DNA from: a virus
Strand: one strand, 5' to 3'
Length of the DNA: 44,551 nucleotides
Virus record (IMG/VR): IMGVR_UViG_3300010354_000162
Coordinates: 1 to 44,551 of that record
Shown: positions 6,468 through 44,551 of the stretch, piece by piece
How the letters are laid out: each line of letters starts with the position of its first letter
How positions within the stretch are numbered: position 1 is the first letter of the stretch
Program-made: the position numbers and the translations under genes
The notes under the pieces: model-generated
The model's database searches: none
The model's input: the letters and a program-made list of their open reading frames with translations, nothing else
What the model was told of the DNA's origin: nothing

Positions 6468-6701
6468 ATGGAGCCGGCGTTTCTCCTGATATACTACGGC
6501 GGCTTCACGTGGGGAGAGATACAGAAAATGCCTGTATTCTACAAGCGGTGGTTCATAGAGAGAATTAACAAAGAATTAAGTAGAACATCAGAGTCTGGTC
6601 AGACACAATCAAGAGCGCTTCACCAGAACTCTCCTGAGACACGGTCGATGCAGGGACGAACCCGAGAGCAGTCACCGTCCAGACTTCGTCGTTTTACTTA
6701 A
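6468..6701 (+). CDS. Small tail-assembly protein (gp51/chaperone-like) next to gp26-like gene
   Basis: The protein has 77 residues from ATG 6468. The first half reads FTWGEIQKMPVFYKRWFIERINKEL (W-EI---P----W--ER--KE), a helical motif typical of small second products of tail-chaperone pairs and of T4 gp51-like proteins; the tail is Arg/Ser/Gln-rich and disordered. It starts 13 bases after the upstream stop, with only a weak SD. Its frame stays open upstream to 6363, overlapping the 3' end of the preceding gene by ~90 bases in the +1 frame, so a frameshifted fusion is possible. Likely role: chaperone for hub or tape measure. Confidence 0.55.
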   Translation: MEPAFLLIYYGGFTWGEIQKMPVFYKRWFIERINKELSRTSESGQTQSRALHQNSPETRSMQGRTREQSPSRLRRFT

Positions 6702-6756
6702 TTTGTCGTCATATTTTTTTGCTACTTCTTATTTACACTGTTAAGAGGTGCGTTGC

Positions 6757-7053
6757 ATGGAGTCTACTCAAAACCCGGAGATACTGAAGGAAGAAGTTTA
6801 CAGTAGTTTGACTGGAAAGCTTCTCTTGGCTTCTATTGGTGCTTGGCTCGTCGGTAAGTCTGTCAACACTAAGATAAGGGGCACACAGCAAGAGATACGA
6901 GCGATTGCAAATGCCCTTATGGCCTCAAAGAGATTCCAAGAGGAGCTTCGTAGACCTGGAGCAACCGTCGAGTCGATCTCTCAGAAGCTTAAGCTCAAGC
7001 ATATTACAGCTGTCGAGTTTGAGAGGACGCTAGGAGTCCGTTGGCCACTCTGA
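6757..7053 (+). CDS. Hypothetical protein upstream of tape measure gene
   Basis: The protein has 98 residues from ATG 6757; AAGAGG at 6743-6748 is well placed, so the in-frame GTG at 6748 is probably not used. Residues ~18-35 (LLLASIGAWLVGKSV) are hydrophobic enough for one membrane segment, though the remainder is a charged helix (IRAIANALMASKRFQEEL). The C-terminus VEFERTLGVRWPL is compact. I do not recognise the family. It sits 14 bases before the tape measure gene and is probably co-translated with it, so a tail-tip or tape-measure partner role is a reasonable inference. Confidence 0.5.
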   Translation: MESTQNPEILKEEVYSSLTGKLLLASIGAWLVGKSVNTKIRGTQQEIRAIANALMASKRFQEELRRPGATVESISQKLKLKHITAVEFERTLGVRWPL

Positions 7054-7067
7054 GCCGGGTGTAAGAC

Positions 7068-26237: not shown

Positions 26238-26265
26238 TAGACCCAACTTGGAGACAACTTTAAAC

Positions 26266-28779
26266 ATGACAAGGTATACGCAGGAAGAAGCTTACGCAAG
26301 TTCGTTGGAATACTTTGGGGGAGATGAGTTAGCAGCCTCAGTGTTTCTATCGAAGTACGCACTACGCGATTCGTCAGGATCGCTCCTCGAGAAGACACCT
26401 GCAGACATGCATCGTCGACTCGCAAAGGAGTTCGCACGAATCGAGGCGAAGTATCCAAATCCTCTAGGCGAAGAGGAGATCTTCGAATACTTGTCTAAGT
26501 GGGAGATTGTTCCACAGGGCTCTCCTATGTCTGCAATGGGAAATCCCTACAAGATTCAGTCTCTGTCTAACTGTTTTGTCATTGCGGCGCCTGAAGATTC
26601 ATACGGTGGTATCCTCTTCGCCGACCAGGAGCAGGCGCAGATCATGAAGCGTAGAGGTGGTGTTGGATTCGATATCTCCACAATTCGTCCCAAGGGAATG
26701 CACACAGCCAACGCCGCAGGCACAACTGACGGCATCGGCGTATTCATGGAGCGCTTCTCCAACACTTGCCGTGAGGTTGCACAGGGTGGCCGTAGAGGTG
26801 CTCTCATGTTGACCGTCTCGGTTAACCATCCTGAGATTGAAACATTCATCAATATCAAGCGTGATCTCAAGAAGGTTACTGGTGCCAACATCTCAATTCG
26901 CCTCACTGACGACTTCATGCAAGCCGTAAAGGATGAATCTGAATACACGCTTCGCTGGCCTGTTGACGCTTCTGTGAATGATGCAAAGGTCACCAAGACT
27001 GTCAAGGCCAAGGAAGTCTGGGATCAGATCATCGATGCTGCTTGGACGTCTGCAGAACCAGGTCTTCTTTTCTGGGACACTGTTAAGAAGGCAACCCCTA
27101 CAGAGGCATATGCCTCTCTTGGGTACGGATCTGTCTCTACCAATCCATGTGGCGAGATTGTTCTTTCTCCGTACGACTCTTGTCGACTCCTTCTGCTCAA
27201 CCTCGCTAAGTTCGTGAAGAATCCGTATGATGCAGGTGCAACATTCGATTATGTCGCCTTCGGCCGTGCGGCTAAGGTTGCTCAGCGTCTCATGGACGAT
27301 CTTGTCGATCTAGAGCTCGAAGCAGTTGATACAATTATAGCCAAGATCGAATCAGATCCTGAATCTGAGGCCGTAAAGCACTCTGAGCTAGCATTGTGGA
27401 GAAAGATTAAGGACGCTGCTTCGAAGGGACGTCGAACAGGCCTGGGTATTACCGCCATGGGAGATGCTCTCGCAGCACTTAACATCCGCTATGGATCTCA
27501 GGAATCGGTTGACAAGACAGAAGAGATCTACAAGGTTCTCGAAGTGAACGCCTATCGATCTTCTGTTCGAATGGCAGCAGAGCGCGGTGCATTTCCGATC
27601 TTCTCCCACAAGCTCGAAGCAGATCATCAGTTTATCCAGAAGGTGATTTCTGCAGATCCAGAGCTTCGATCAGATTACCTAAAGTATGGTCGTAGGAACA
27701 TAGCCCTTACCACTACAGCACCGGCAGGCTCTGTTTCTTGTTTAACGCAAACAACAAGTGGCATTGAGCCGGCGTTTTTGGTCTCCTATACACGCAGGAA
27801 GAAGATTACATCGACAGACGTAGACGCCCGCGTGGACTTTGTAGATCAGCTCGGTGACAAGTGGCAGGAGTATAAGGTTTATCACCACGGTTATAAGAAG
27901 TGGATGGAAGTGACAGGAAAGGGAGACAATGTTGAGGAGTCTCCGTATTGGAAGGCCACGTCGAATGACGTTGACTGGGAGATGTCTGTGAAGCTTCAAG
28001 CTGCTGCTCAGAAGTGGGTGTGTCACTCTCTCTCGAAGACATGTAACCTTCCCAATGCAACGTCCAAGGAAACCGTCGCTCAGGTCTACATGGCAGCGTG
28101 GGAGTCCGGATGCAAGGGGTTCACTGTCTATCGCGATGGATGCAGGACAGGTGTTCTCGTTTCTGATGAACCAAAGAAAGAAGAAGTGCAAACTGACGGT
28201 CAGCCTGTTGCAATCACAGAGAATCACGCACCAAAGCGTCTTAAGGAATTACCCTGCGATATTCATAGAATTAACGTAAAGGGTTCTGCCGGTACGGAAA
28301 GCTATCTTGTTCTTGTCGGAATGATGGAAGGAAAGCCTTACGAAGTATTCTGTGGACTCTCTTCACACGTCGAAGTGCCAAAGAAGGCAAAGCATGGAAC
28401 TCTTATCAAGAACGGCAAGAAGGACGGTGTTGCAACTTACAATCTCTCTATTCCCGTCGGAGACGACGATGTAGTTGTCTTTAAGGATGTTGTCGAGCTC
28501 TTCGCTAATCCTCTTCATGGTGCTTTCACACGCTCGCTCTCTCTTGCTCTGCGTCACGGTATCCCAGTTCAATACGTTGTTGAACAGCTTCAGAAGGATA
28601 AGCACAGCGACATGCAGAGCTTCTCGAGAGTTATTTCTCGAGTTCTTAAGGGGTATATTCCTGACGGAACAAAGTCAACTTCTGATAAGAATTGTCAATC
28701 TTGTGGCGCTACAGACGGACTCGTCTATCAGGAAGGTTGTCTCACCTGTAAATCTTGCGGAAATTCCAAGTGCGGGTGA
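26266..28779 (+). CDS. nrdJ: Class II (B12-dependent) ribonucleoside-di/triphosphate reductase
   Basis: The protein has 837 residues from ATG 26266; the TTG at 26248 is part of the SD (TTGGAG). The ten-stranded barrel signatures are present: LSNCFVIAAPEDS, RRGGVGFDISTIRP, STNPCGEI with C295, GLGITAMGDALAAL, TAPAGSVSCLTQTTSGIEP and SLSKTCNLPNATSKE. The C-terminus has CQSCGATDGLVYQEGC and CKSCGNSKCG, a zinc-ribbon-like tail typical of NrdJ. It makes deoxyribonucleotides with adenosylcobalamin, so no NrdB subunit is needed and none is present. It depends on cobalamin from the host or the medium. With Dut, ThyX and Tmk it forms the dNTP supply of the phage. Confidence 0.9.
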   Translation: MTRYTQEEAYASSLEYFGGDELAASVFLSKYALRDSSGSLLEKTPADMHRRLAKEFARIEAKYPNPLGEEEIFEYLSKWEIVPQGSPMSAMGNPYKIQSLSNCFVIAAPEDSYGGILFADQEQAQIMKRRGGVGFDISTIRPKGMHTANAAGTTDGIGVFMERFSNTCREVAQGGRRGALMLTVSVNHPEIETFINIKRDLKKVTGANISIRLTDDFMQAVKDESEYTLRWPVDASVNDAKVTKTVKAKEVWDQIIDAAWTSAEPGLLFWDTVKKATPTEAYASLGYGSVSTNPCGEIVLSPYDSCRLLLLNLAKFVKNPYDAGATFDYVAFGRAAKVAQRLMDDLVDLELEAVDTIIAKIESDPESEAVKHSELALWRKIKDAASKGRRTGLGITAMGDALAALNIRYGSQESVDKTEEIYKVLEVNAYRSSVRMAAERGAFPIFSHKLEADHQFIQKVISADPELRSDYLKYGRRNIALTTTAPAGSVSCLTQTTSGIEPAFLVSYTRRKKITSTDVDARVDFVDQLGDKWQEYKVYHHGYKKWMEVTGKGDNVEESPYWKATSNDVDWEMSVKLQAAAQKWVCHSLSKTCNLPNATSKETVAQVYMAAWESGCKGFTVYRDGCRTGVLVSDEPKKEEVQTDGQPVAITENHAPKRLKELPCDIHRINVKGSAGTESYLVLVGMMEGKPYEVFCGLSSHVEVPKKAKHGTLIKNGKKDGVATYNLSIPVGDDDVVVFKDVVELFANPLHGAFTRSLSLALRHGIPVQYVVEQLQKDKHSDMQSFSRVISRVLKGYIPDGTKSTSDKNCQSCGATDGLVYQEGCLTCKSCGNSKCG

Positions 28780-29532: not shown

Positions 29533-30192
29533 ATGCCCGAACAACTCAACAGAGTAGAATTAATCGGTTTTTATGGTGGAGATGAATCCCACGCCCTTTC
29601 GGCGTGGACCTCCACCTCTCGTGATTTGACGGACGAGAAGAGGGAGAGAATTCCCAAGCTTCTGAAAATGCTCGCAGAGAATGGACACGAAACTCCCTTC
29701 GAGAAGAGTTCGCTCCACTTCCTGTGCACGACCGAGATTGCTTCACATATCCATTTGATTAAGCATCGCATCGGAGTCTCCGTGAACGGAGAGTCAGCTC
29801 GATACAAGGAGTTGAAGGACGACAAGTATTACGTTCCTACAGACTGGGACACAGAGGAGAAGACGAAGTACGTCGAGCACATGGAGGCTTCCCTGAAGAG
29901 ATACCACGAGGTTCTCACACGTCTCGAGAAGAAGGGCGTTCCTCGGAAGAGAGCCAAGGAATCTGCCAGGATGTATGTTCCTTACGGGAATCAGCTCACG
30001 GCTGACGTGATGTTCAACTTCAGGAGCTTCGTTCACTTCCTCAGACTGCGATACTCCACACACGCCCAGCTGGAGATTCGCGACTTGGCAGGTGAGATGC
30101 TGAGACTCGTCAAGGAAACTGGACAGTTTGATGCCACACTCGAAGCTTTCGGTTTGCTTGTTGATGGACAGCTAAGAGGACCTTTCGAATGA
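29533..30192 (+). CDS. thyX: Flavin-dependent thymidylate synthase ThyX
   Basis: The protein has 219 residues. The signature is KHRIGVSVNGESARY (K77-H78-R79 ... S88, R90), a phage variant of RHRx7S with Lys for the first Arg and one extra residue before the Ser. ARMYVPYGNQLTADVMFNFR and FLRLRYSTHAQLEIRDLA supply the other dUMP/FAD contacts. It methylates dUMP to dTMP with methylenetetrahydrofolate and NAD(P)H. The ATG follows TAATATGACTAC with no SD; this may be a leaderless start. It overlaps tmk by four bases. A second, divergent ThyX-like protein is coded at 43679. Confidence 0.9.
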   Translation: MPEQLNRVELIGFYGGDESHALSAWTSTSRDLTDEKRERIPKLLKMLAENGHETPFEKSSLHFLCTTEIASHIHLIKHRIGVSVNGESARYKELKDDKYYVPTDWDTEEKTKYVEHMEASLKRYHEVLTRLEKKGVPRKRAKESARMYVPYGNQLTADVMFNFRSFVHFLRLRYSTHAQLEIRDLAGEMLRLVKETGQFDATLEAFGLLVDGQLRGPFE

Positions 30193-30779
30193 GCAAGATC
30201 ATAGTGATTGAAGGACCTGATAGATGCGGCAAGGCCACACAGAGTGCGCTACTCTGTGAATATCTTTGGCAATGCGGAAAGAAAGCTAAAGTGGTGGAAG
30301 TTCCCATACACGATAAAGTTACATACGACGCAATTTACTGGATGCTTGAGAAGGGACACGCTAAAAAATTCCCAAGAATCTTTCAGCTCACTCAGTTCCT
30401 CAATCGCTGGCTCTTTCAAACGAAAGAACTTTCAGATCTCGATCACGAATATGACTATCTCATCTTTGACAGGTGGAGTCTCTCTACGACAGTGTATGGC
30501 AAGGCTGCCGGAGTCGATGACGGATTTGTCAACTATTTCTATAGAAAGCTAAGAAAACCAGATTACACGCTTGTGCTTCTTGGCAAGCCCCACGCACACG
30601 TCGCTGAAGACGTCTATGAGAAAGATAACGAGCTTCAGGAAAAAGTGAGAAAGCTTTATGCTGACTGGGTCAACAAGAACCCAAAAGAAGCTCACATAGT
30701 AGCTTCAGATAGATCTAAAGAATCAGTATTTACAGAAATAATCGTGGTGTTAAAGACTACAAGGAACATACCATCTTGA
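30189..30779 (+). CDS. tmk: Thymidylate kinase
   Basis: The protein has 196 residues. The P-loop EGPDRCGKAT (8-17) replaces the more usual EG-DG-GK-T; the DRWSLSTTVYGKAAG block (~99) is the dTMP-binding DR(Y/W)--S motif, and a lid region (YEKDNELQEKVRKLY) follows. It phosphorylates dTMP made by ThyX to dTDP. The gene overlap (ATGA) with thyX indicates coordinated production. Confidence 0.85.
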   Translation: MSKIIVIEGPDRCGKATQSALLCEYLWQCGKKAKVVEVPIHDKVTYDAIYWMLEKGHAKKFPRIFQLTQFLNRWLFQTKELSDLDHEYDYLIFDRWSLSTTVYGKAAGVDDGFVNYFYRKLRKPDYTLVLLGKPHAHVAEDVYEKDNELQEKVRKLYADWVNKNPKEAHIVASDRSKESVFTEIIVVLKTTRNIPS

Positions 30780-31129: not shown

Positions 31130-31519
31130 ATGATGAACATTAGATACGACTCGATGCTGAAGACACCGACTCTCTTCGACACCCTTCGTACGCTAGAGGA
31201 CCTTTACTCGACCCCCACGTCTCGTACGAGGGTGTACACCAACACCTCAGTGTACAGGACGGAAGAGAAAGACAACGAACTCCATCTCTCCATCGATCTA
31301 CCGGGAGTAAAGAGCAAGGACATCTCCGTGCAGGTCACGGGGCGTGAGATCAAAGTTACCGGAAAACTTAGGGGAGAAGACTTCAAGTACTCCTACGTTC
31401 TCTCCAGAGACCACGATCCAGAAACTGTTGTGGCTACCCACGAAGACGGAGTCCTCACTCTCACTTTCGGGAAGACGTCGAGCGCAAAAACAAAGACGGT
31501 TGAGATCAAGGTAAAGTAA
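31130..31519 (+). CDS. Small heat-shock protein, Hsp20/alpha-crystallin family
   Basis: The protein has 129 residues. The alpha-crystallin domain spans ~40-129: ELHLSIDLPGVKSKDISVQV, REIKVTGKL, and the closing DGVLTLTFGK. There is a short N-terminal arm (LFDTLRTLEDLYSTP) for oligomerisation and a C-terminal tail VEIKVK that could act as the IxI-like motif. It holds unfolded proteins without ATP; phages may use it to stabilise virion proteins or protect replication under stress. The leader is structured (see 31047). Two consecutive ATGs exist; the first has the better SD spacing. Confidence 0.9.
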   Translation: MMNIRYDSMLKTPTLFDTLRTLEDLYSTPTSRTRVYTNTSVYRTEEKDNELHLSIDLPGVKSKDISVQVTGREIKVTGKLRGEDFKYSYVLSRDHDPETVVATHEDGVLTLTFGKTSSAKTKTVEIKVK

Positions 31520-33803: not shown

Positions 33804-34760
33804 ATGCTAATTCTTCCTCCAAGACGATTACGTAATAACTCTCGCGTAGCTATTGTGGCTCCTTCTGGCCCTATCGTCTCGGACGAAGTCCAGGCAGGAA
33901 TTGATATCATCAGAGAGTGCGGCCTTGAGCCTGTCTTGGGACCTTGTGTTAAGAATCTTAAGACTACAGGAGATCATGCAGGCTCTGTTAGAGATAGAGT
34001 TGATGAGCTCAACTGGGCATTTTCACAGCCTGGCATTGCAGGAGTCATAGGTGCTGTTGGAGGTGAAGGATCTGCAGCAGTTCTTCCCTATCTTGATTAC
34101 GACAAGATACGTGCTTCCCAAAAGCCATTTTTGGGAATGTCTGATCTCACTGCGATCAACACAGCACTGTTTACCAAGTCTGGTCTCATTTCTATAAATG
34201 GCCAGACGCCCTCTATTCGTCTGGACAAGGGAAGAAAAATTCAAGAGGCGGACTCAGAATCTTTCAAACTTACTCTTGAATTGCTTAAGTCCGACCAACT
34301 GTGGGGTTCTCGTCCCTTCTACTTTAATCCTTTCTTTCCAAGAACAGTATCTCCCGGAAAAGTCTCGGGAATTTCTATTGGAGGAAATCTTGACACTTTT
34401 GTCCATCTAGTTGGAACCCCCTATATGCCCATCCCTGAGAATATGATTCTATTCGTAGAGGATGTTCACAAGGAAGGCGTTGAGCTTTCTCGAGAGTTTC
34501 TTCACCTGCGACTCTCTGGTTTTCTTGGTAGTGTTTCAGGAATTGTCGTTGGACAATTTGAGGACGTACCGAAAGATCTCGAAGGGAAGGTTCCATCAGT
34601 AGAAGACGTTCTTCTCGAATATTGCGGTCATGGTCCACCTTGTGCTTACGGCTACAGTTTCTCCCACGGCCCCCTCACGAGCCCGATACCTATCGGCGCA
34701 AATACTTGCGTTGATGCGGACACGGGCGAAGTATCATTTGACTTCAAGATGTCGTCATGA
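33804..34760 (+). CDS. LD-carboxypeptidase (peptidase S66, LdcA/MccF-like)
   Basis: The protein has 318 residues, close to the usual 300-340. The N-terminus SRVAIVAPSGPI is the S66 opening. The catalytic triad is in place: S113 in GMSDLTAIN, E219 in ILFVEDV and H288 in FSHGPLTSPIPIGAN. Other family blocks are VGGEGSAAVLPYLDYD and GGNLDTFVHLVGTPYMP. LdcA enzymes cut the L-Lys/Dap-D-Ala bond of murein tetrapeptides; MccF enzymes of the same family cleave microcin C and similar peptide-nucleotides. There is no signal peptide, so it acts in the cytoplasm. Possible roles are murein recycling during lysis or detoxification. ATGA overlap with the HNH gene. Confidence 0.85.
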   Translation: MLILPPRRLRNNSRVAIVAPSGPIVSDEVQAGIDIIRECGLEPVLGPCVKNLKTTGDHAGSVRDRVDELNWAFSQPGIAGVIGAVGGEGSAAVLPYLDYDKIRASQKPFLGMSDLTAINTALFTKSGLISINGQTPSIRLDKGRKIQEADSESFKLTLELLKSDQLWGSRPFYFNPFFPRTVSPGKVSGISIGGNLDTFVHLVGTPYMPIPENMILFVEDVHKEGVELSREFLHLRLSGFLGSVSGIVVGQFEDVPKDLEGKVPSVEDVLLEYCGHGPPCAYGYSFSHGPLTSPIPIGANTCVDADTGEVSFDFKMSS

Positions 34761-35291: not shown

Positions 35292-35486
35292 ATGAAAATA
35301 AAATTGAGTGATCTAAGAAAGATAATCAGAGAAGAAATTGAGATGGCAGGATCTCAACCCGAAGAAGGGTATACTGAAGAGCTTTTAAGTGATCCCAAAT
35401 TTAAGGAAAAAAGCGTCTTTGTTAGAGATTCTGCAAAGAAAAAGATATTATCTTGGGCCAAAGACATGAAGTTGTCCACTAAATAG
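35292..35486 (+). CDS. Small protein with LRKIIREE leader
   Basis: The protein has 64 residues. MKIKLSDLRKIIREEIEMAG is the clearest copy of the amphipathic leader that recurs in this window (compare 37239 and 35537). An acidic stretch and a basic C-terminal helix (SAKKKILSWAKDMKLSTK) follow. GATAGTTAG lies just upstream of the ATG and there is no SD. No known function. Confidence 0.5.
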   Translation: MKIKLSDLRKIIREEIEMAGSQPEEGYTEELLSDPKFKEKSVFVRDSAKKKILSWAKDMKLSTK

Positions 35487-35536: not shown

Positions 35537-36691
35537 ATGCATCTGAAGCTTAAAGAGCTGCAGCAAGTAGCAAAGAAAACGATAAAAGAAGAACAGAAGT
35601 ATGCGACAATTCGCGAAGAGTTTTTCCGCGTTTTCGGTCCACCAGTGATGGTATCAAAAAATTGTGATAGAGTTGCAGAGGCAGTTAATGAACAACTCGA
35701 TCTTTCTGAAGCCTTTAGAAGAGAGGTTCAGCGAGGCAGCGTCAAGACGTCTGTCCTTATAGAGGCTTCTATAAGCAATTCTGCAGCACTGAGAAAAGTT
35801 GCTGCTCGTCTTCTTCCTGAAAAAATGGTTGTTAGACTCCTCGAAGATCCTTCTTCTTCTGTTAGATGCGCAGCTGCCAAGCGCTTGCCTTACGAGGCAA
35901 TAAGGGAGTCAATCAAAAAGTTTCCAAATGACGATCAGCTTCTCACGATAGCCAGGCAGAAGAAGCTGCAAGAAGCCGGTCTCCCAGATCCAGAAGAAGT
36001 AGACGAGCCTTTTGACATGTACGGTGAAGAGCCGCTCGGAGATTCAGTTAAAACACACAAGAGCGACAAGGACCTACCAGATACTTGGTATAAGCGTCTT
36101 GCACACAAGATTTGTAGTGACTACGGTGGAAACCTTGAAGGAAACTGGGAAGAGACCATCGCAACACGAATAGTCGCGAGTCACTACTCTACGACCGGCG
36201 TCAAGCTCGACAGAGACAAGCTTCTCAATTCTATCTATGACTGCATAAAGGAAAGAGAAGACGAGGTCCTCGGTGAGGGATCTCTCAGAGCAATTGCTCG
36301 CCGTCTCATGAAAGAGTCGTATCTTGATTCTTCAGTTATGCCTATCGTAGAAGAAGACGTGAGAGACCCCGTTGTCGATCTACTGGAATCGAACTATTCT
36401 ACGGCGCAGTACGTCGACGAAGCTGAAAGATTATTTTCCGTAAAGAAGTCGAGTGTTCCAAGCGGAATAAAGAAGTACAGGCTTGGTGAAGGGAGTCACG
36501 TTGAAACTCTCGTCCCAGTTAATGGCAAGATACCTGGTGGTTCGATGACCTCCGTGGTTGAGCAGGCTCTTGATCGATATGTAGATTCATGGAATAAGAG
36601 ACAGGCACTTGCAGGAGAACCTTATAGACTTTCGTGGGGACCCCACGGATCTGGCATCAATATGGTCGGATTCAACCTGGAGCTTAAGTAA
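35537..36691 (+). CDS. Hypothetical protein with HEAT-like repeats and LxE-type leader
   Basis: The protein has 384 residues. The leader MHLKLKELQQVAKKTIKEEQ is again basic amphipathic with IKE-E. Residues ~85-140 contain paired-helix units (LRKVAARLLPEKMVVRLLED, then SSVRCAAAKRLPYEAIRESI) like HEAT or 'leucine-rich repeat variant' units that bind proteins or nucleic acid. The middle is acidic (GLPDPEEVDEPFDMYGEE) and the C-terminus is a compact domain ending SGINMVGFNLELK. SD TAGGAG at 35521-35526. It is coupled to the Dps-like gene by a TAATG junction. Confidence 0.55.
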   Translation: MHLKLKELQQVAKKTIKEEQKYATIREEFFRVFGPPVMVSKNCDRVAEAVNEQLDLSEAFRREVQRGSVKTSVLIEASISNSAALRKVAARLLPEKMVVRLLEDPSSSVRCAAAKRLPYEAIRESIKKFPNDDQLLTIARQKKLQEAGLPDPEEVDEPFDMYGEEPLGDSVKTHKSDKDLPDTWYKRLAHKICSDYGGNLEGNWEETIATRIVASHYSTTGVKLDRDKLLNSIYDCIKEREDEVLGEGSLRAIARRLMKESYLDSSVMPIVEEDVRDPVVDLLESNYSTAQYVDEAERLFSVKKSSVPSGIKKYRLGEGSHVETLVPVNGKIPGGSMTSVVEQALDRYVDSWNKRQALAGEPYRLSWGPHGSGINMVGFNLELK

Positions 36692-37242
36692 TGAAGAAAA
36701 GACTCGTAGAAACCCTTGAGATGGCTCTTGTCGTGGAACCCAACCTCGACATCATCACAGAGAACATGGTTTCAGAGTGGGGAGGAGTTCCGTACCCAGA
36801 GCTCTCTGTCCTCCTCGTCCACCTCAAGTTCCTCGCTGCAGTCCACCAGAATCATCACTGGATCACGAAGGGCGATCCTTTCTACGGAGATCATCTCCTC
36901 TTCTCTCGAATCTATGAGGCTACTGCAGCAGACATTGACTCTCTTGCAGAAAAAGCCATCGGTCTCGGTTGCACTTCGAACGTGGACGTCGTCCTTCAGC
37001 ACAAGCAGCTATGCCAGCTACTTCAGGGATATGGAATGACTGCCACGATTCCACAGCCCACCGAACTTGCTAAGCGTTCCTACCTCGCTGAGATGAACTT
37101 CCTTAAGGCTGCTGCTCATCTAGCGGAGCATCTCAAGGCGAACGGCACTATGTCCCGTGGACTCGACAACCTTCTCGCTGGAATCGAGGACAAGCATGAA
37201 GGACACATCTATCTCCTCAAACAAAGGATTATGCCACAATGA
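36691..37242 (+). CDS. Dps/ferritin-like protein
   Basis: The protein has 183 residues. The four-helix ferritin core starts at ~35. The block H56-W57-I-T-K-G ... H68 ... D83-S-L-A-E87-K-A-I-G-L-G aligns without gaps to the E. coli Dps ferroxidase region as I remember it (H51, H63, D78, E82), with Ser72 at the D67 position. Such proteins form 12-mers, oxidise Fe(II) with peroxide and store iron, and many bind DNA. The ~30-residue N-terminal extension begins MKKRLVETLEMALVVE, basic then amphipathic, like the leaders of the neighbouring genes. Likely role: protection of DNA from oxidative damage, in the cell or packed in the capsid. ATGA overlap with the next gene. Confidence 0.8.
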   Translation: MKKRLVETLEMALVVEPNLDIITENMVSEWGGVPYPELSVLLVHLKFLAAVHQNHHWITKGDPFYGDHLLFSRIYEATAADIDSLAEKAIGLGCTSNVDVVLQHKQLCQLLQGYGMTATIPQPTELAKRSYLAEMNFLKAAAHLAEHLKANGTMSRGLDNLLAGIEDKHEGHIYLLKQRIMPQ

Positions 37243-37853
37243 AGCTTACAGCATCGATGCTTAGAAAGATTATCTCAGAGGAGATTTCTAAGATAAAGCC
37301 AAAGAAGAATCTTACAGAAGCAATGACTCGCATCACAGAAGATGAGATGGCAGCCTGGAAGAACGGAAACTGGGGTTACGTCGCCGGGGACGATCATGAA
37401 CCTGCTGTTGATTTTGATGATGATGATCGATTTCTACACGGTTCTGAGCATGGTGCTGCTCAAGATGACGAAGGATACATGGCAAAGTCACAGCTCTCTT
37501 CAATGAAGGAGATGGCGCATGACATCTGCGAGCTTCTCGATTATGATGATCAGCTTCCCGGATGGGTACAAAGCCACATAGCAGTTGCTCACGAGAATCT
37601 TCAGCAGGTTCACGGTTATCTTACTGGCGATGCGAATCTCGAAGCATACGGCGAGGAAGACGAGCACGAGCACGAGGTGCACGCTGAAGCGAAATCTAAG
37701 GGACCTTCCAAGAAGACTGCACAGAAGATACTAAAGGGAACAAAGACCTTCAAAGACAAGGTTAAGAAGGTTGAGAAGTGGGCTGATGAACCAGAGGCGG
37801 CAGCAGCTTGGATGATGCACAAGGCCACAGGAAAGTGGCCAAGCGAGAAGTGA
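37239..37853 (+). CDS. Aquatic-phage conserved protein with IISEE leader
   Basis: The protein has 204 residues. Leader: MKLTASMLRKIISEEISK, then NLTEAMTRITED with more LxE/IxE sites. The central domain GYMAKSQLSSMKEMAHDICE, LDYDDQLPGWVQSHIAVAHE, NLQQVHGYL is a block that I know as recurrent in phages of aquatic bacteria (MAKSQL...A..L...L.DDDQLP.WVQS.IA.A......V..YL). An acidic/His linker (EEDEHEHEVHAEAK) leads to a basic helix and AWMMHKATGKWPSEK. Function not established; presence of separable modules suggests a virion-associated role. Confidence 0.6.
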   Translation: MKLTASMLRKIISEEISKIKPKKNLTEAMTRITEDEMAAWKNGNWGYVAGDDHEPAVDFDDDDRFLHGSEHGAAQDDEGYMAKSQLSSMKEMAHDICELLDYDDQLPGWVQSHIAVAHENLQQVHGYLTGDANLEAYGEEDEHEHEVHAEAKSKGPSKKTAQKILKGTKTFKDKVKKVEKWADEPEAAAAWMMHKATGKWPSEK

Positions 37854-38460: not shown

Positions 38461-38797
38461 ATTTGGTTACGTCTAACGTTTCAGGATAGCCCTTCTCTCC
38501 TGGTCGCTTAGGACGTTTACCTGCCTTGCGTCTGGCATGAATGTTCGCCCAGAGACCTCTCTTTTTCTTCTTTGCTTCGTCGAGGTGAGTGCAACCACAA
38601 GATCCTTCGATTTTCATGTAGCCACATTGCGTGCAAGCCTCAGCTTCGTTTGTGTGTTCGCATTCGCAGTCTTTCATGCCGCATTCGGGACAGATGCTCT
38701 CATCAATGCTTCGAACACCTGCTGGCGCATCACCAGCGTAACTTCCAATAGGATCACCGAATCTTTCCTGTATTATTTCAACGATGCTTCTCTTCAT
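38459..38797 (-). CDS. Zinc-ribbon protein with IIQER leader (minus strand)
   Basis: The protein has 112 residues. It begins MKRSIVEIIQERFGD, again with IxE sites. The middle has two Cys clusters (CPECGMKDCEC and CTQCG...GSCGC), which would bind two zinc ions. The end, LDEAKKKKRGLWANIHARR, KAGKRPKRPGEKGYPETLDV, is a short conserved module (KGLW.NI.A.R..G..P..PG...YP..L) that I know from many phages and which usually stands at the C-terminus. It is the only minus-strand gene in the right half and has its own 54-base divergent promoter region. Function unknown. Confidence 0.6.
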   Translation of the reverse strand: MKRSIVEIIQERFGDPIGSYAGDAPAGVRSIDESICPECGMKDCECEHTNEAEACTQCGYMKIEGSCGCTHLDEAKKKKRGLWANIHARRKAGKRPKRPGEKGYPETLDVTK

Positions 38798-38851
38798 ACT
38801 TCTAAATATGCATTGTACTTACTGTTTGGACGTTTATATGATCTAACAGAT

Positions 38852-39229
38852 ATGGATAGTTGCAAACTTACTAAGATGCTAGAGCTTCGAGAGAAGTTTA
38901 TGAGAGACTTGGCTGCAAAGAGGCCTGCTGTTCTGCAATCGTGGCCTGTTGACATTTCTAGGAAAGAGTCTCAGCAAGTTGTTCGAGATACAGTTTTGAA
39001 GGGAGTCGAGGAGATGTTTGAGTCTCTTGCGCATCTAAAGAACTGGAAGCCACATAGAACGACAGAGATTGCAGATTTTGATCACGAAGCTTTTCTTGAA
39101 GAGTATGTAGACGCGTTCAATTACTTTCTTTCTGTCCTCGTCATGCTAGGCATCGATGCAGAAGAGTTGTTTGAAGCTTATACTAGAAAAGACAGTATCA
39201 TTCATGACAGGCTGAAGAAAGACTACTAA
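38852..39229 (+). CDS. All-alpha dUTPase/NTP-pyrophosphatase-like protein
   Basis: The protein has 125 residues from ATG 38852; the frame is open further upstream but that part overlaps the minus-strand gene and is not protein-like. Helical metal-site motifs of the dimeric dUTPase/MazG superfamily are visible: EEMFESLAHLKNWKPHR and FLEEYVDAFNYFLSVLVMLGI, then KDSIIHDR (K/R for the nucleotide). These enzymes split (d)NTPs to (d)NMP and pyrophosphate; FLEEYVDAFNYFLS is closest to dUTPase-2. One-base TAATG coupling to a paralogue fused to a phosphatase suggests the two chains assemble. Confidence 0.6.
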   Translation: MDSCKLTKMLELREKFMRDLAAKRPAVLQSWPVDISRKESQQVVRDTVLKGVEEMFESLAHLKNWKPHRTTEIADFDHEAFLEEYVDAFNYFLSVLVMLGIDAEELFEAYTRKDSIIHDRLKKDY

Positions 39230-40170
39230 TGCCTAACTGGAATAATCTCGATGAATCTCTAGCAGCTCAAAAAGACTTCTCTGATCTTTTCTTTGATTCT
39301 TCAAAGCTAACTGAAAAACAGAGAGAAGAACACTTAAAGACGCTTGTTCTTGCATTGCACTCAGAGGCAACAGGAATCGTAGAAGCTGTTAACTATAAGG
39401 ATCATAGAACTTCAGAAGGTCCCGTAGACATAGCAAAGATCCTCTTCAAGACAGTCGATGCTTATCGATATATTCTAGCCATCCTTAACCTGTGGGGAAT
39501 TGACTCGAATAATTTTGCAGCTGCCCTGGACCAAAAGAACAGCTTTCTTCACTACAGACACAAGATGGCTGGAAGATGCTGGGATGGTGAACAGCCTGTC
39601 GCTCTTTTCGACATGGATGATGTATTAGCAAATTTTAGAAAGTCTTTCTGCGATTGGTCATCGAGAAAATGCGGTCATTTCATCGACCCAGAAAGTGATG
39701 AATACTATAACGTTCGCGAGTTTAAGAAGCTTGACATTAACAGCGAAGGATATTTCAAAGAGTTCATAGACTGTCACGGTCTTGCTTTGCTAGAGAGGGA
39801 CGAAGCATATATCGCTCTGCTGAATCATCTCAAGTCGCAAGGATACTGGATTCAGATCATAACTTCTCGTCCTGAGAATGAGCTCAATTGTTTTTATGAT
39901 ACGTACGCCTGGCTCTCTATGAACAAGATAGATGCAGACGGAGTTGCCTTCGCACCAGAGAAGTTTGTTTGGCTCACCAAGCAGCCGTATTACAGCAAAG
40001 GCAAGTACTTTGCAATCGATGACTCTGCGAAGCACGCTGCAGAATATGCCAAGCATGATGTAAAAGTCATGGTTCCGGAAAAATCATACAATCAGGAAGT
40101 CAAAGGAATTAATAACATATCGTATGTTCCAAAAGGATGCAATCCCATTGATTTTATCCCAGTTGTCTGA
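39229..40170 (+). CDS. Fusion: degenerate dUTPase/MazG-like domain + HAD 5'-deoxynucleotidase-like phosphatase
   Basis: The protein has 313 residues. Residues 1-110 repeat the preceding protein (NYKDHRTSEG, VDAYRYILAILNLWGID, KNSFLHYRHK versus NWKPHRTTE, VDAFNYFLSVLVMLGID, KDSIIHDRLK), but two acidic metal ligands (EEYVD, EEMFES) are changed to FKTVD and LHSEAT, so this half may be inactive or structural. Residues 121-313 are a HAD domain: nucleophile VALFDMDDVLANF (D128, D130), motif II IIITSRPE-type QIITSRPENE and motif IV FAIDDSAKHA. DMDxVLA(N/D)F is typical of 5'(3')-deoxyribonucleotidases and of polynucleotide 3'-phosphatase relatives. I infer sequential dNTP to dNMP to nucleoside chemistry, or end healing. 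Confidence 0.7.
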   Translation: MPNWNNLDESLAAQKDFSDLFFDSSKLTEKQREEHLKTLVLALHSEATGIVEAVNYKDHRTSEGPVDIAKILFKTVDAYRYILAILNLWGIDSNNFAAALDQKNSFLHYRHKMAGRCWDGEQPVALFDMDDVLANFRKSFCDWSSRKCGHFIDPESDEYYNVREFKKLDINSEGYFKEFIDCHGLALLERDEAYIALLNHLKSQGYWIQIITSRPENELNCFYDTYAWLSMNKIDADGVAFAPEKFVWLTKQPYYSKGKYFAIDDSAKHAAEYAKHDVKVMVPEKSYNQEVKGINNISYVPKGCNPIDFIPVV

Positions 40171-40181
40171 CAGGTCGATTG

Positions 40182-40190
40182 TATAGTTAT
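40182..40190 (+). promoter_or_regulatory. TATAGTTAT promoter-like box
   Basis: This is identical to 26229-26237 and lies in the only sizeable gap (38 bases) of the cluster, 18 bases before ATG 40209. A second TATAAA follows at 40195. Confidence 0.4.
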
Positions 40191-40208
40191 CCGCTATAAA
40201 GGACGGTC

Positions 40209-41405
40209 ATGGGCGGAAATGTAAATATTGTGGGACCTTCAGGCAAGTCTTACAGAGTGGATAAACCAGACTTTAGAAAGATCGATAGGACTCAGTTTAA
40301 GAAGTCTTTTGTTGATGCTTTTAAAGTTCTTGACAAGTTACATGCGAAGAAGTTTGGAACACCAATCTGGCCCGCAAAGACTCGTGATACCCTACTAAAC
40401 ACAGGAGAGGCATTCAATGGTTCTTCTGAGCATTTATTCGGAAATAGACTTTCTGACGAAGAGATAAATGAATACAAGCCAACATTCGGCGACATAGACT
40501 TGACAGTTCCGAAGGAGAACTTTAAGACTCTTTTTGAGCTTCTTGATGAAATTACAGGGAAGAAGCTAAATTCTTCGGTTTCATACGTCGATAAAAAAGC
40601 AGGTATTGGCGGAGAGCAGATCAATTGTCTCTTCACGTATTCAGACGGAAATAATCCTCAGCTTTATGTTCAGATTGATTTTGAGTCCGTAGACTATGAA
40701 TCAGGATCTCCGAACGAGTTTGCAAAGTTTGGTCACTCTTCTTCTTGGGAAGATACAAAAAGCAGCATTAAAGGAGTATTTCACAAATATATTCTGAGAT
40801 GTCTTGCTACAGTTGTTTCACTGAAACGAGATGTAGTTCTTCTCACAAGAACGAGTCCGCTCGACCCACCTGAAAAGGTCAAGGTGTCGAAGACCACAAA
40901 TCCTGTAAGGCTTCTTTCATTTTCAGTCGACAAAGGCCTAAGAACAAAGTTTACCCAGCAATTTCACAAGGACGGAACACCTGTGATTGTAAACGGAATG
41001 GAGGCGTACAAGGAGATTCCTGCTGGTGATGACGTTAGATCGAAAAAAGAAATTTTTAGACTGCTCTTTGGAGACAATCCTGTCGGAAATGAGCTGAATC
41101 TTCTAGATTCCTACCTTGGCCTTCTGCAATTAATGCAGGATCACTTCGACGACAATCAGATTGAAGAAGTATACCTTGACTTTATAGGATTTAAATTATA
41201 TGGAAAAGAAGGCCAGGCCCTCGACGCAACAAGCTCTGAAGGTGACATGTCAGCCAAGATGCCTGCAATAGCTGCATTTAGAAATAAATTTCCCTTTCTT
41301 CAAAAGCATGACAGACATCTCGAAGACTTGCAAGAAGACTATTATAAGTCCTACAAGGTCAGATCAGAATCTTTGAGAATATGGAGAAACTTGCTAGATG
41401 CTTGA
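40209..41405 (+). CDS. Predicted nucleotidyltransferase (pol-beta fold)
   Basis: The protein has 398 residues. The motif GSSEHLFG (71-78) followed by FGDIDLTVP (D95, D97) fits the G-S ... D-x-D signature of the polymerase-beta nucleotidyltransferase fold, with a longer spacer than usual. A later acidic strand, LYVQIDFESVDYE, could supply the third carboxylate. The C-terminal half is helical with VYLDFIGFKLYGKEGQ. Such folds add nucleotides to RNA ends, proteins or small molecules. It overlaps the ligase-adenylyltransferase gene by eight bases, so a shared pathway is likely. The SD is AAGGAC. The catalytic call is moderate. Confidence 0.55.
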   Translation: MGGNVNIVGPSGKSYRVDKPDFRKIDRTQFKKSFVDAFKVLDKLHAKKFGTPIWPAKTRDTLLNTGEAFNGSSEHLFGNRLSDEEINEYKPTFGDIDLTVPKENFKTLFELLDEITGKKLNSSVSYVDKKAGIGGEQINCLFTYSDGNNPQLYVQIDFESVDYESGSPNEFAKFGHSSSWEDTKSSIKGVFHKYILRCLATVVSLKRDVVLLTRTSPLDPPEKVKVSKTTNPVRLLSFSVDKGLRTKFTQQFHKDGTPVIVNGMEAYKEIPAGDDVRSKKEIFRLLFGDNPVGNELNLLDSYLGLLQLMQDHFDDNQIEEVYLDFIGFKLYGKEGQALDATSSEGDMSAKMPAIAAFRNKFPFLQKHDRHLEDLQEDYYKSYKVRSESLRIWRNLLDA

Positions 41406-43068
41406 CATATCGATCAAAGCCCTTCAAAAGGCAATTACTAACCCGAAAAAAGCTTCTGACTTTATAAGAAAACACATAGTCGCTGTAGAAAAGATCGACG
41501 GAACTAAGCTGACACTTATAAGGAACGACAGTCCTTTTGATCCCAAAGATTACTCCAAGAACTGGATAGTTTCCTACAAGGGAAATGTAATATATTCAAC
41601 GGAATTCAAGGGGTTAGAAAAAAGAGAAAAGGACATAAAGGCAACAGCGCTTGGCACGTCACAGTACAAATTTGTTCATGACCATCTGAAAAAAGTTCAC
41701 CCAGGGACATCGCAGATACCGGTTAACACTGAGTTTTTTATAGAGTTTGTACAGAACAAGCCTACAGTTACACGTGACTATGCGAAAAAGCATGGCATGT
41801 ATTTGGTAGGATTCGGTCCTACAAAATATGCTGTTTCTAGAGGTCAACTATTTTCTTCTTCTAACTTCGTGGATTCACCTGAAGAGCTTGAATCCTACAG
41901 GAAGATGTTAAAGCTTGGTTCATTCCCTGTTGTGTTTGACGGAAATCTGTCTTCTCGCAAATCGATTCTTGACGGATGCATTGATGCTGGGCTGAAGAGC
42001 TTATTTCAGCAGGGCTTTGATAGTACTGACTTCTCTGATCCGATGTCTATCGTTAATCTAACTGCAAATTCTTTTTCACAGTTAGAATCCTCCCTCGGCG
42101 GAGCTGCCGAGGGAGTTGTCATACAAATAGGAGACGATGAAGTATCTGAAAAGCAACTAATTAAAGTTCTTGCTTCGGATCAGCATAGCAAAGATGTCAG
42201 GGCGGCAAAGGCTGCCAGATCAAAAGGAACCGCAGACGAAGAGACGTTGTACTGGCGCGCTGTTAATGAATTGGTTGATGGAATTTTAGACAATCTTCCC
42301 CGCGGCAAACCAGAAGAGATGCTTGATAAACTTTCTAGTATTGCTTATAGCCTAGAAGACTTGCCTGAACACCCAGTAAAATCAAAGATAAATGTACAGG
42401 AAGACATTCTTCTCACAGCAAAATTGCGCCTTCTAAGCACGGGTACGCATCGAGCGAATAAAGTTGCTGTCATTCCGATGGCTGCAAAGCCATTTCATTC
42501 TGGACATGACTCTCTCATTAAGCAAGCCATTGCTGACGGAAATGACTCCATCATAATTTTTGTTTCAACTGGCGGCAGAGAGGAAATAACTGCTGAGGAC
42601 ATGATACCTCTCTGGCGCGACTATTATATTCCTGGCATATCAGAAGAATATGGAGATAAAGTTGTAATTAGATTCTCTGATTCTCCAATGAGAGAGGCAG
42701 TTTTAGTAGCTCGTGATCTTGTCAACAGGGGAAAGAAGACGATTGTCAGGCTTTATGGAGGAATAGACTCGGCAGGAGAAAACGAGGCACAGCAGCGAGT
42801 AGACACCATAACCCAGAAAAATCCTGAACTAAAAGATAGAATACTTGCTGCCGGTGTAAAGAGATCGGGAACAGGAGGCGTAAGCGGAACAGCTATGCGC
42901 CAGTATCTGTCTTCGGGAGACTCCAAGTCATTCATCAAGAATCTTCCAGATTGGCTTGGAAAAGAAGGGAAGCTAGGTGTGTGGAAAACTATGTCAAAAA
43001 TAGCTTCTTCGAGACTCGCTGTTGAAAACTTGATTAGGACTTATGTAAGATCAACATTGACTTCATGA
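41398..43068 (+). CDS. Fusion: RNA/DNA ligase-like adenylation domain + HxGH adenylyltransferase domain
   Basis: The protein has 556 residues. The N-terminal half has covalent nucleotidyltransferase motifs: I EKIDGTKL (K32 would be the AMP-Lys), IIIa EFFIEF (112-117), IV AEGVV (237-241) and V KQLIKV (252-257). The C-terminal half is a nucleotidylyltransferase of the HxGH superfamily: VIPMAAKPFHSGHDSLI (H367, H370) and the ISGTxxR-like block VSGTAMR (495-501), as in NMN adenylyltransferase/NadM. Ligases of this group seal RNA or DNA nicks; the second domain makes NAD-like dinucleotides or activates a nucleotide. Neighbours (nucleotidyltransferase, HAD phosphatase, phosphoesterase) suggest RNA repair or NAD salvage. 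Confidence 0.75.
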   Translation: MLDISIKALQKAITNPKKASDFIRKHIVAVEKIDGTKLTLIRNDSPFDPKDYSKNWIVSYKGNVIYSTEFKGLEKREKDIKATALGTSQYKFVHDHLKKVHPGTSQIPVNTEFFIEFVQNKPTVTRDYAKKHGMYLVGFGPTKYAVSRGQLFSSSNFVDSPEELESYRKMLKLGSFPVVFDGNLSSRKSILDGCIDAGLKSLFQQGFDSTDFSDPMSIVNLTANSFSQLESSLGGAAEGVVIQIGDDEVSEKQLIKVLASDQHSKDVRAAKAARSKGTADEETLYWRAVNELVDGILDNLPRGKPEEMLDKLSSIAYSLEDLPEHPVKSKINVQEDILLTAKLRLLSTGTHRANKVAVIPMAAKPFHSGHDSLIKQAIADGNDSIIIFVSTGGREEITAEDMIPLWRDYYIPGISEEYGDKVVIRFSDSPMREAVLVARDLVNRGKKTIVRLYGGIDSAGENEAQQRVDTITQKNPELKDRILAAGVKRSGTGGVSGTAMRQYLSSGDSKSFIKNLPDWLGKEGKLGVWKTMSKIASSRLAVENLIRTYVRSTLTS

Positions 43069-43622
43069 GTATTTTCTTCTCATCTGACCATCATTTCTTT
43101 CACTCTAACATAATCAAGTATTGCAATCGACCTTTTTCAGACGTCGATTGCATGAATGCTGACATGATTTGTCGATGGAACACCACGGTCGGTAAAGATG
43201 ACTCAGTCATATATTGTGGCGATTTGTCTGCTGGTCTTGGAAAAAGGGAAGAAAATTTGAGGGAAGTTATCCGATCTCTTAATGGAAGAAAATTCCTCGT
43301 GAGAGGCAACCACGATCATCAGACTGATGATTGGTATGAAGCGTCAGGATTCGAAAAAGTTTTTGAACGACTTGAGCTGGGTGGTGTTTTGGTAATTCAT
43401 TACCCACTCATGACAGCTCAAGATTTCGGCGTTAATCTTGACGAGATTGGTGAAATAGAGCACGTCGTTCACGGTCACACACATCACGCTAGCACTCCCA
43501 ATCACGAGAATCACTTTAATGTTGCCGTTGACAGAAATGATTTCTTCCCTGTCGACTATAGAAAAGCAATACCTGATCATCTTCAAACACAGTTCATTGA
43601 CGCTGTTTCTTGTTTATTGTAA
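43065..43622 (+). CDS. Calcineurin-like metallophosphoesterase
   Basis: The protein has 185 residues. All five metal-site motifs are visible: SDHHFFH (D8, H10), CGDL (G52-D53), GNHDH (81-85), VIHYP (H112) and GHTHH (137-141). The opening IFFSSDHHFFHSNIIKY(C)NRPF is that of a family often annotated as phosphoesterases in phages. It hydrolyses phosphomonoesters or diesters, possibly 2',3'-cyclic phosphates. It overlaps the ligase fusion gene (ATGA), and so is probably part of the same end-processing or nucleotide pathway. Confidence 0.85.
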   Translation: MSIFFSSDHHFFHSNIIKYCNRPFSDVDCMNADMICRWNTTVGKDDSVIYCGDLSAGLGKREENLREVIRSLNGRKFLVRGNHDHQTDDWYEASGFEKVFERLELGGVLVIHYPLMTAQDFGVNLDEIGEIEHVVHGHTHHASTPNHENHFNVAVDRNDFFPVDYRKAIPDHLQTQFIDAVSCLL

Positions 43623-43678: not shown

Positions 43679-44551
43679 ATGCCCATCAATAAAGATCTAG
43701 AACCAATCGAACTCCCAATGGTCCTCAAGTTCGGTCAAGAACCGAAGACCACTTTCCTTAACAACCTCGACGCTCTCAAAGTGGAGCTAGTCGATCACCC
43801 GACCCGCCAACAGGCATGGAACGTGGCATGGCACTACGTCAAGGCCACCTGGGCAGATCGCCCAGACATCGACCCGACTGAAGGAGTGTCGCAGCAGGAA
43901 CTCTCCAAGAACCTCGAGGACGTATTTGGTGGGCGCACTCTTCCTGCTCCAATGGAGTGCCTCGGCTTCACGTTCCGTCTCAGCGGCCTGTCCTTCCAGG
44001 AGGTGACTCACATCATTCGCCACCGTGCAGGTACTTTCGCTGCACAGTGCACGGGTGATCGCGACCTCCGTGATGACGACGTGGTCGTTCCGGAACCCGT
44101 GCAGAACTCGCCCGACTTCCTTCGCCGCTGGGAGAAGATCGTAAACGACTCCAAGGAACTTTACGCTGAGATGGTCGACTCCAAGGCGGTCTCCATGATG
44201 GATGCCCGACTCATCCTCCCGAAGTGCATGACCTCGTTCTACTACATGCGACTGTCGCTCAAGGACCTCATCGGTTTCATTTACCAGCGCATGGACACGC
44301 AGATCCAGCCTGCTGCTGACAACCTCCTCGCCTCGAGAATGGCCGTAGAAGTCGCCAAGGTGATTCCTGAGTTCACGTCGGTGATCGACTTCAACAAGCC
44401 CGATATGCACTACATCAAGACCTTCCGCGTGAAGGAAGGTGACAAGTTCGTGTCCCGTGGCACTAACCTCTACTGGCCTATTCCAAAGAACGACAAGTTC
44501 GAGTTCCACCCGAACGACACGATCTACCAGTGCACGAGGGAGGAGATCAAT
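43679..44551 (+). CDS. ThyX-like protein, divergent second copy (3' end cut off)
   Basis: The frame runs 291 codons from ATG 43679 (SD TGGAGA) to the window end without a stop. The ThyX core can be followed: FTFRLSGLSFQEVTHIIRHR with RHR at 114-116, then AGTFAAQC so that C124 stands where the usual RHRx7S has Ser, then RDL; MMDARLILPKCMTSFYYMRL (AR..LP ... R) and FIYQRMDTQIQPAADNLLA. A ~90-residue N-terminal and a >70-residue C-terminal extension are unusual. It is unlike the standard ThyX at 29533, so a different substrate (another dUMP reaction or a modified pyrimidine) is possible. Codons are very C-rich compared with its neighbours, suggesting high expression or other origin. Confidence 0.6.
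   Translation, partial: MPINKDLEPIELPMVLKFGQEPKTTFLNNLDALKVELVDHPTRQQAWNVAWHYVKATWADRPDIDPTEGVSQQELSKNLEDVFGGRTLPAPMECLGFTFRLSGLSFQEVTHIIRHRAGTFAAQCTGDRDLRDDDVVVPEPVQNSPDFLRRWEKIVNDSKELYAEMVDSKAVSMMDARLILPKCMTSFYYMRLSLKDLIGFIYQRMDTQIQPAADNLLASRMAVEVAKVIPEFTSVIDFNKPDMHYIKTFRVKEGDKFVSRGTNLYWPIPKNDKFEFHPNDTIYQCTREEIN

Follow-up and report, generated by a model that had tools for sequence, protein, structure and literature searches.

A polymerase-beta-like nucleotidyltransferase and a ligase-HxGH fusion form the coupled core of a candidate end-healing module in phages

The virus record IMGVR_UViG_3300010354_000162 from IMG/VR, whose entire 44,551 bases we refer to as the window, carries four consecutive genes on the plus strand that had been proposed to encode a nucleic-acid end-repair set (Table 1). 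We have shown here that a nucleotidyltransferase (NTase) of the polymerase-beta type, a ligase that resembles T4 RNA ligase 2 (Rnl2) and an HxGH nucleotidyltransferase domain are an evolutionarily coupled core, which is accompanied by a metallophosphoesterase and sometimes by a P-loop kinase. The module is apparently confined to viruses and apparently has not been described before; a search of open-access papers returned no description of the ligase-HxGH fusion or of packaged repair enzymes. We give about an even chance to the reading that this is a phage-specific module for the healing and sealing of nucleic-acid ends, most likely those of RNA cut by host defence ribonucleases, with tRNA as the prime candidate. 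The families phrog_19290 and phrog_27149, both listed with 'unknown function' and both found in many environmental phages as well as in phages of Campylobacter, Vibrio, Xanthomonas and Stenotrophomonas that can be cultured, become one testable system. All four open reading frames (ORFs) of the original prediction were found where they had been described and with the described spacing. A 38-bp gap lies between the gene for the supposed HAD phosphatase and the NTase gene, the NTase and ligase genes overlap by 8 bp, and the ligase and metallophosphoesterase genes by 4 bp.

The coupling of the core is seen best in its genomic neighbourhoods. Two scans of viral contigs yielded about 100 loci, of which 60 remained after dereplication (labels beginning with L; L008 is Xanthomonas phage X1, L110 Stenotrophomonas phage Mendera, L003/L007 CP220 and L002 Va1). 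NTase and ligase occur together in 53 of these 60 loci, if both ligase types and fusions are counted, several of them as one chain. Where the analysed stretch of a locus contains the NTase and a ligase of the window type as separate ORFs, they lie within 2.5 kb of each other in 40 of 40 loci; the distance is at most 20 bp in 25 loci and the NTase is upstream in 38. An overlap of the two genes is the usual case. Such recurrence puts the association far beyond chance. A gene order that is not conserved had been named beforehand as the observation that would speak against the module, and it was not seen for the NTase-ligase core, whose order is conserved. The distance matrices of the two proteins are correlated as well (Mantel r = 0.92, permutation maximum 0.28), a value to which common phage descent contributes. 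The strongest sign of a joint function is that the domains were fused independently in two orders. The order NTase-ligase-HxGH is found in L034-L047 and L049, in giant proteins of 987-1684 amino acids (aa), and the order ligase-HxGH-NTase in L077, L078, L079 and L081. In X1, L023, L050 and Mendera the NTase, ligase and HxGH domains are encoded by three separate neighbouring genes. NTase and ligase genes can also stand apart in the same genome, as in Firehammervirus (about 65 kb) and L019 (about 20 kb).

When we searched a collection of 50,697 annotated phage records by tblastn, the ligase fusion matched 21 of them (15 Campylobacter, 6 Vibrio) and the NTase was found in the same Campylobacter and Vibrio groups and in X1. 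Among cultured phages, Firehammervirus, Va1-like Vibrio phages, X1 and Menderavirus carry the module. A search for cellular relatives gave a single match among 84,980 genomes, located on a probably viral 8-kb low-coverage contig of a metagenome-assembled genome, and this was a weak test that used two short peptide patterns only. A gene with D...(E/S)xK-like stretches is located between NTase and ligase in X1 (7840-8844) and Mendera (6572-7516), or after the ligase in Va1 (7455-8249), and the stretches suggest that it might encode a nuclease fold.

The NTase of the window shows the pattern GSS...GDID...QIDFE. In an alignment of 37 homologues G71-S72, D95-x-D97 and D157 are invariant, and the conserved GSS/GST, GDhDh and QhDhE elements make up the hG[GS]...[DE]h[DE]h...h[DE]h signature of the polymerase-beta NTase superfamily. 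The same 37 sequences served as input for an AlphaFold2 model (mean predicted local distance difference test score, pLDDT, 92.7). Foldseek comparison of the model with the PDB identified the DNA polymerases lambda and beta of family X (probability 1.00, best E 2.4e-4); the TM-scores of 0.2-0.45 are low and hence the similarity covers the catalytic core and not the entire protein. The motif and the polymerase lambda match bear out the earlier assignment as a polymerase-beta-like NTase. The protein matched no Pfam family, and profile searches of Pfam and PDB sequences with the NTase yielded nothing meaningful. This NTase family, unrecognised by Pfam, and the ligase-HxGH fusion are additions to the phage end-repair repertoire. 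Identity with RlaP was ruled out: PF10127 matches 0 of the 37 members and the hhalign probability is 0.03%. RlaP is a distinct gene in 4 of the 39 module-bearing records in which genes were counted. L043 (8994-11194) has two NTase paralogues in tandem, of 334 and 397 aa, upstream of the ligase, and a similar pair is found in L048 (4770-6461), where the second copy is interrupted by the contig end. In the record behind L089, a 60-aa NTase remnant (G028:157888-158055) and an intact ligase-HxGH gene lie on opposite strands, about 1.4 kb apart; the remnant may stem from a module copy in decay.

The second core protein had been described as a fusion of a ligase and an adenylyltransferase, and both parts were confirmed by motifs and by folds. 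The ligase part contains KIDG and EGVV in the window and has motifs I, III, IV and V of the covalent nucleotidyltransferase superfamily. Across the 27 homologues K32-I-D-G (K32, D34, G35), E116, E238-G239 and K256 are invariant. The best PDB match of the AlphaFold2 model obtained with these 27 sequences (pLDDT 90) is T4 Rnl2 (2hvr, E 1.8e-6, probability 1.00), followed by nicotinate-nucleotide (NadD) and phosphopantetheine (PPAT) adenylyltransferases. Matches at the Pfam level are RNA_ligase-like (E 0.0036) and HxGH nucleotidyltransferase-like (E 0.0041), and the RNA_ligase score reaches 17.9 bits against a gathering cut-off of 27 bits. KxDG, E and EG motifs are common to the module ligase and T4 Rnl2. 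Unlike T4 Rnl2, which has its own C-terminal domain, the module protein continues with a helical linker and the HxGH domain, and it has a near-constant NTase partner. The HxGH domain of the window is intact and belongs to the HxGH nucleotidyltransferases by its motifs HSGH (aa 367-370) and SGTAMR (aa 496-501). A profile search of PDB sequences with this domain found NMNAT and PPAT (E down to 7.5e-9).

This likeness bears on a second proposal, in which the HxGH domain synthesises NAD or a dinucleotide of that kind and thereby feeds the ligase or counters NAD-depleting defences. In favour of it, the profile and fold of the domain are similar to NMNAT/NadD/NadR and PPAT, and the two motifs are complete in the window. 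An HxGH nucleotidyltransferase domain is also part of the NadR/NadM/NadV salvage of NAD in phages. However, HxGH is retained, together with SGTxMR in most cases, in the window and about ten relatives, whereas in the Firehammervirus/Va1/T4-like group TxAH, TKDGH or a similar sequence stands at the HxGH site and the arginine is mostly gone. In total, about half of the lineages have eroded HxGH/SxTxxR motifs, while NTase and ligase residues stay invariant. This erosion makes NAD synthesis less likely to be what the system is for, and the motif changes suggest that part of the family may have lost the HxGH chemistry or have a different one. Moreover, in contrast to NAD salvage systems, the module has no Nudix partner and its HxGH domain comes coupled to a ligase and to an NTase that resembles polymerases. 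The NAPRTase NadV is encoded in 4 of 24 large records, which is not above the published frequency of 22-33% in medium and jumbo phages (PMC9503650). We consider a role in NAD or cofactor supply very improbable, and the NAD part of the original prediction is weak.

The metallophosphoesterase was correctly recognised from the start, and its Metallophos_2 match is above the curated cut-off. Members of its subfamily are found near the core in 19 of the 60 loci, upstream or downstream, with a gap of at most 2.1 kb wherever they were detected. A P-loop kinase of the AAA_33/zeta type stands beside the module or is fused to it in 7-8 loci. L082, L090, L099 and L100 have it between the NTase and the ligase. 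In L026 it follows the ligase, in L019 it lies nearby, and L103 contains a partial ORF of it. In L080 the kinase is joined to the N-terminus of the NTase, and this fused version is the polynucleotide-kinase-like phrog_505. The HAD gene is a different matter. Its C-terminal half is weakly NT5C-like (Pfam E 0.0013, under the curated cut-off), in line with the HAD assignment, but a MazG-like N-terminal half had been overlooked, which is related to the adjoining MazG/dUTPase-like gene upstream (BLASTP E 6e-9). Only in the window and in L010, its closest relative, does the pair of MazG and MazG-HAD genes adjoin the module; in L012 it lies 5.9 kb off. The two genes form a pair of their own and hence the HAD gene is a nucleotide-metabolism neighbour. 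A function of the HAD protein as 3'-phosphatase of the module was rejected, since it is a MazG-HAD fusion that travels with a tandem MazG and its linkage to the module is not conserved. What stands of the coordinated four-gene set are the NTase and the ligase-HxGH fusion, whose domains are linked across dozens of phage lineages, and the metallophosphoesterase as a recurrent associate, and the HAD gene falls outside.

With a ligase, an NTase and a phosphatase or kinase in one conserved neighbourhood, the module has the general composition of an RNA-repair system. According to published surveys, RNA repair in phages involves a ligase, a kinase, a phosphatase, which is sometimes calcineurin-like, and an NTase by which lost nucleotides are restored (PMC7824862), and from the match with these surveyed systems we infer steps of end-cleaning, phosphorylation, nucleotide addition and sealing. 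The metallophosphoesterase would remove a 3'-phosphate or cyclic phosphate and the P-loop kinase, where present, would restore the 5'-phosphate. The NTase would re-add lost 3' nucleotides, and the Rnl2-like ligase would adenylate the 5'-phosphate and then seal the ends. Least certain is the step of the HxGH domain. We can only speculate that it might transfer a nucleotidyl group to or from the terminal phosphate, for example by reversing abortive 5'-adenylation. RNA is the predicted substrate on the basis of the ligase fold and of the comparison with known repair systems. Among the 39 records, 22 contain tRNA genes. Genes similar to QueC, QueE, radical-SAM enzymes or queuine transferases are found near the module in the T4-like phages X1, Mendera and CP220. 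They suggested a link to 7-deazaguanine DNA modification. PF01702 was found in 0 of the 39 records, but this count carries no information, since the profile did not pick up even the 'queuine tRNA-ribosyltransferase' annotated in X1.

Several known systems share part of this arrangement. RlaP-type phage repair also places a polymerase-beta-superfamily NTase beside an ATP-grasp/Rnl-type ligase and end-cleaning enzymes in large phages (PMC7824862). In contrast, the module NTase is not RlaP, its ligase partner carries an HxGH domain on the same chain and the leaders of many relatives look capsid-targeting. The T4 enzymes Rnl1 and Pnkp, to which the module had been likened, likewise combine a ligase with end healing in T4-like phages. 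To regard the two as the same is too simple. The module ligase has an Rnl2-like fold, a kinase-HAD phosphatase fusion is missing (the HAD gene of the window encodes no kinase), the metallophosphoesterase replaces the HAD domain, NTase and HxGH domains are added, and some carriers of the module have a T4-type Rnl1 besides. The bacterial Pnkp/Rnl/Hen1 system unites, like the module, a P-loop kinase, a metallophosphoesterase and a ligase/adenylyltransferase. Unlike in that bacterial system (PMC4411300), the module genes are separate and NTase and HxGH domains are extra.

The N-termini of the proteins point to a further feature of the family. NTases start either with MGGN, as in the window, or with a leader. 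Directly before GGN, [LIMFV]xE is found in 43 of 43 genuine NTase leaders (4 of 47 were set aside as start-codon or fragment artefacts), and 17 of 23 ligase leaders have an [LIMFV]xE-type site before A, G, S or T, compared with a background of 11% in other ORFs of at least 100 aa from the same loci; the leaders in these counts are related sequences and not independent events. The capsid-targeting sequences (CTS) of T4 are propeptides of 10-19 residues that are cut off by gp21, and the reviewed sites include LIE (PMC9026906; see also PMC9958956). A T4-type (gp21) prohead protease (PF03420) is encoded in 21 of the 39 records and in 0 of 14 control genomes. Many relatives resemble the T4 internal head proteins (IPI-III, Alt) in having a short N-terminal propeptide that ends at an [LI]xE prohead-protease-like site. 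The T4 head cargo differs, as it consists of small basic proteins and an ADP-ribosyltransferase and not of ligases or NTases; packaging of module proteins is a supported prediction for relatives with leaders but not for the window phage, whose copy is leaderless. To judge from the leaders, the NTases and ligases that bear them are probably substrates of the prohead protease that are packaged and injected. In L015, L035 and L052 the NTase ORF has a 446-aa N-terminal part, an internal junction of INE and GGN and then the NTase domain, which suggests a polyprotein that would be cleaved by the prohead protease. The proteins of the window start with MGGN (NTase) and MLDIS (ligase) and hence carry no leader; this version is probably made inside the infected cell. 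Leaders similar to capsid-targeting sequences are present on neighbour proteins in the window (35292-35486, 35537-36691 and 37239-37853), e.g. MKIKLSDLRKIIREE and MKLTASMLRKIISEE, and similar leaders occur on genes near the module in L005.

It is possible, but on balance doubtful, that the module of T4-like relatives performs virion-packaged RNA repair, in which the enzymes would be loaded by their CTS, trimmed by the protease (the NTase then starting at GGN) and injected, and in which the HxGH domain would add a nucleotidyl-transfer step to ligation. If this holds true, RNA cleaved by host defence would be healed ahead of any phage gene expression. Repair enzymes inside the virion would then shift the presumed start of phage counter-defence against RNA-cleaving immunity. 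The leader pattern makes delivery in the virion a specific and cheaply testable prediction. Injected or early proteins might also act without any repair, in that they nucleotidylate a protein, a sugar phosphate or an RNA 5' end, with the ligase acting like a capping enzyme and the NTase like a toxin-type transferase of nucleoside monophosphates. Multidomain polyvalent proteins that are injected and predicted to modify host proteins do contain polymerase-beta NTases (PMC5512222). The NTase is part of the fused chains of 987-1684 aa with CTS-like leaders, and HxGH domains typically use small phosphates as substrates. We regard such a modifying function as quite improbable, since both the association with a phosphoesterase and a P-loop kinase and the best fold match of the ligase, which is Rnl2-like and not a capping enzyme, fit end repair better.

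Some observations weigh against repair of RNA ends as the function of the module. The metallophosphoesterase family is common in phages (850 records), and in roughly two thirds of the loci no member was detected close to the module. An NTase without a detectable ligase is present in four fragments (L012, L015, L018 and L030). None of the 11 virion bands identified for CP220 is a module protein (PMC2853527). A T4-type Rnl1 is encoded as well in CPt10 (Firehammervirus), Va1, X1 and Mendera, and its presence in these four cultured lineages means that the module is not a simple replacement of Rnl1. Menderavirus Ps15 was reported to have PseT in addition (PMC9025141). Finally, the solved folds nearest to the NTase are those of family X DNA polymerases, and hence a DNA substrate is possible. 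In that case the polymerase-X-like NTase, the ligase, the phosphoesterase and the kinase would repair ends or nicks of the phage genome, perhaps after being injected along with it. DNA polymerases lambda and beta are the best structural neighbours of the NTase, and leaders of the head-targeting type would bring the enzymes to the DNA inside the head. However, the ligase domain has the RNA ligase T4 Rnl2 as its best fold match and RNA_ligase as its Pfam match, CP220 possesses its own T4-type DNA ligase gp30 (PMC2853527), and Ku was found in 0 of the 24 large records. Ku-dependent end joining was rejected on the same count. We consider repair of DNA unlikely.

Table 1. Genes and domains of the module and its upstream neighbours in the window
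Feature	Position	Strand	Remarks
MazG/dUTPase-like nucleotide pyrophosphohydrolase	38678..39229	+	partner of the HAD gene, outside the module
MazG-like + NT5C-like HAD fusion	39229..40170	+	313 aa; neighbour, judged outside the module
Polymerase-beta/polymerase-X-fold NTase	40209..41405	+	398 aa; phrog_19290 (PHROG, unknown function); core component; starts MGGN
Ligase-HxGH fusion, whole gene	41398..43068	+	556 aa; phrog_27149 (PHROG, unknown function)
T4-Rnl2-like covalent nucleotidyltransferase/RNA ligase domain	41398..42297	+	N-terminal; domain end approximate
Helical linker of the fusion protein	after 42297 to ~42456	+	between ligase and HxGH domains
HxGH (NadD/PPAT-like) nucleotidyltransferase domain	42457..42972	+	C-terminal; aa 354-525
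Metallophosphoesterase	43065..43622	+	185 aa; phrog_547; Metallophos_2 above Pfam curated cut-off; frequent partner

Further genes of the window deserve mention. A complete LD-carboxypeptidase gene (Peptidase_S66, 33804-34760), seemingly unusual in a phage, is located beside an N4/N6 DNA methylase gene and an HNH gene. Two distinct genes for the flavin-dependent thymidylate synthase Thy1/ThyX (29533-30192 and 43679-44551) are present, together with a ribonucleotide reductase (26248-28779) and a thymidylate kinase (30189-30779). The phage also encodes an HSP20 small heat-shock protein (31130-31519) and a weakly ferritin/Dps-like protein (36691-37242).

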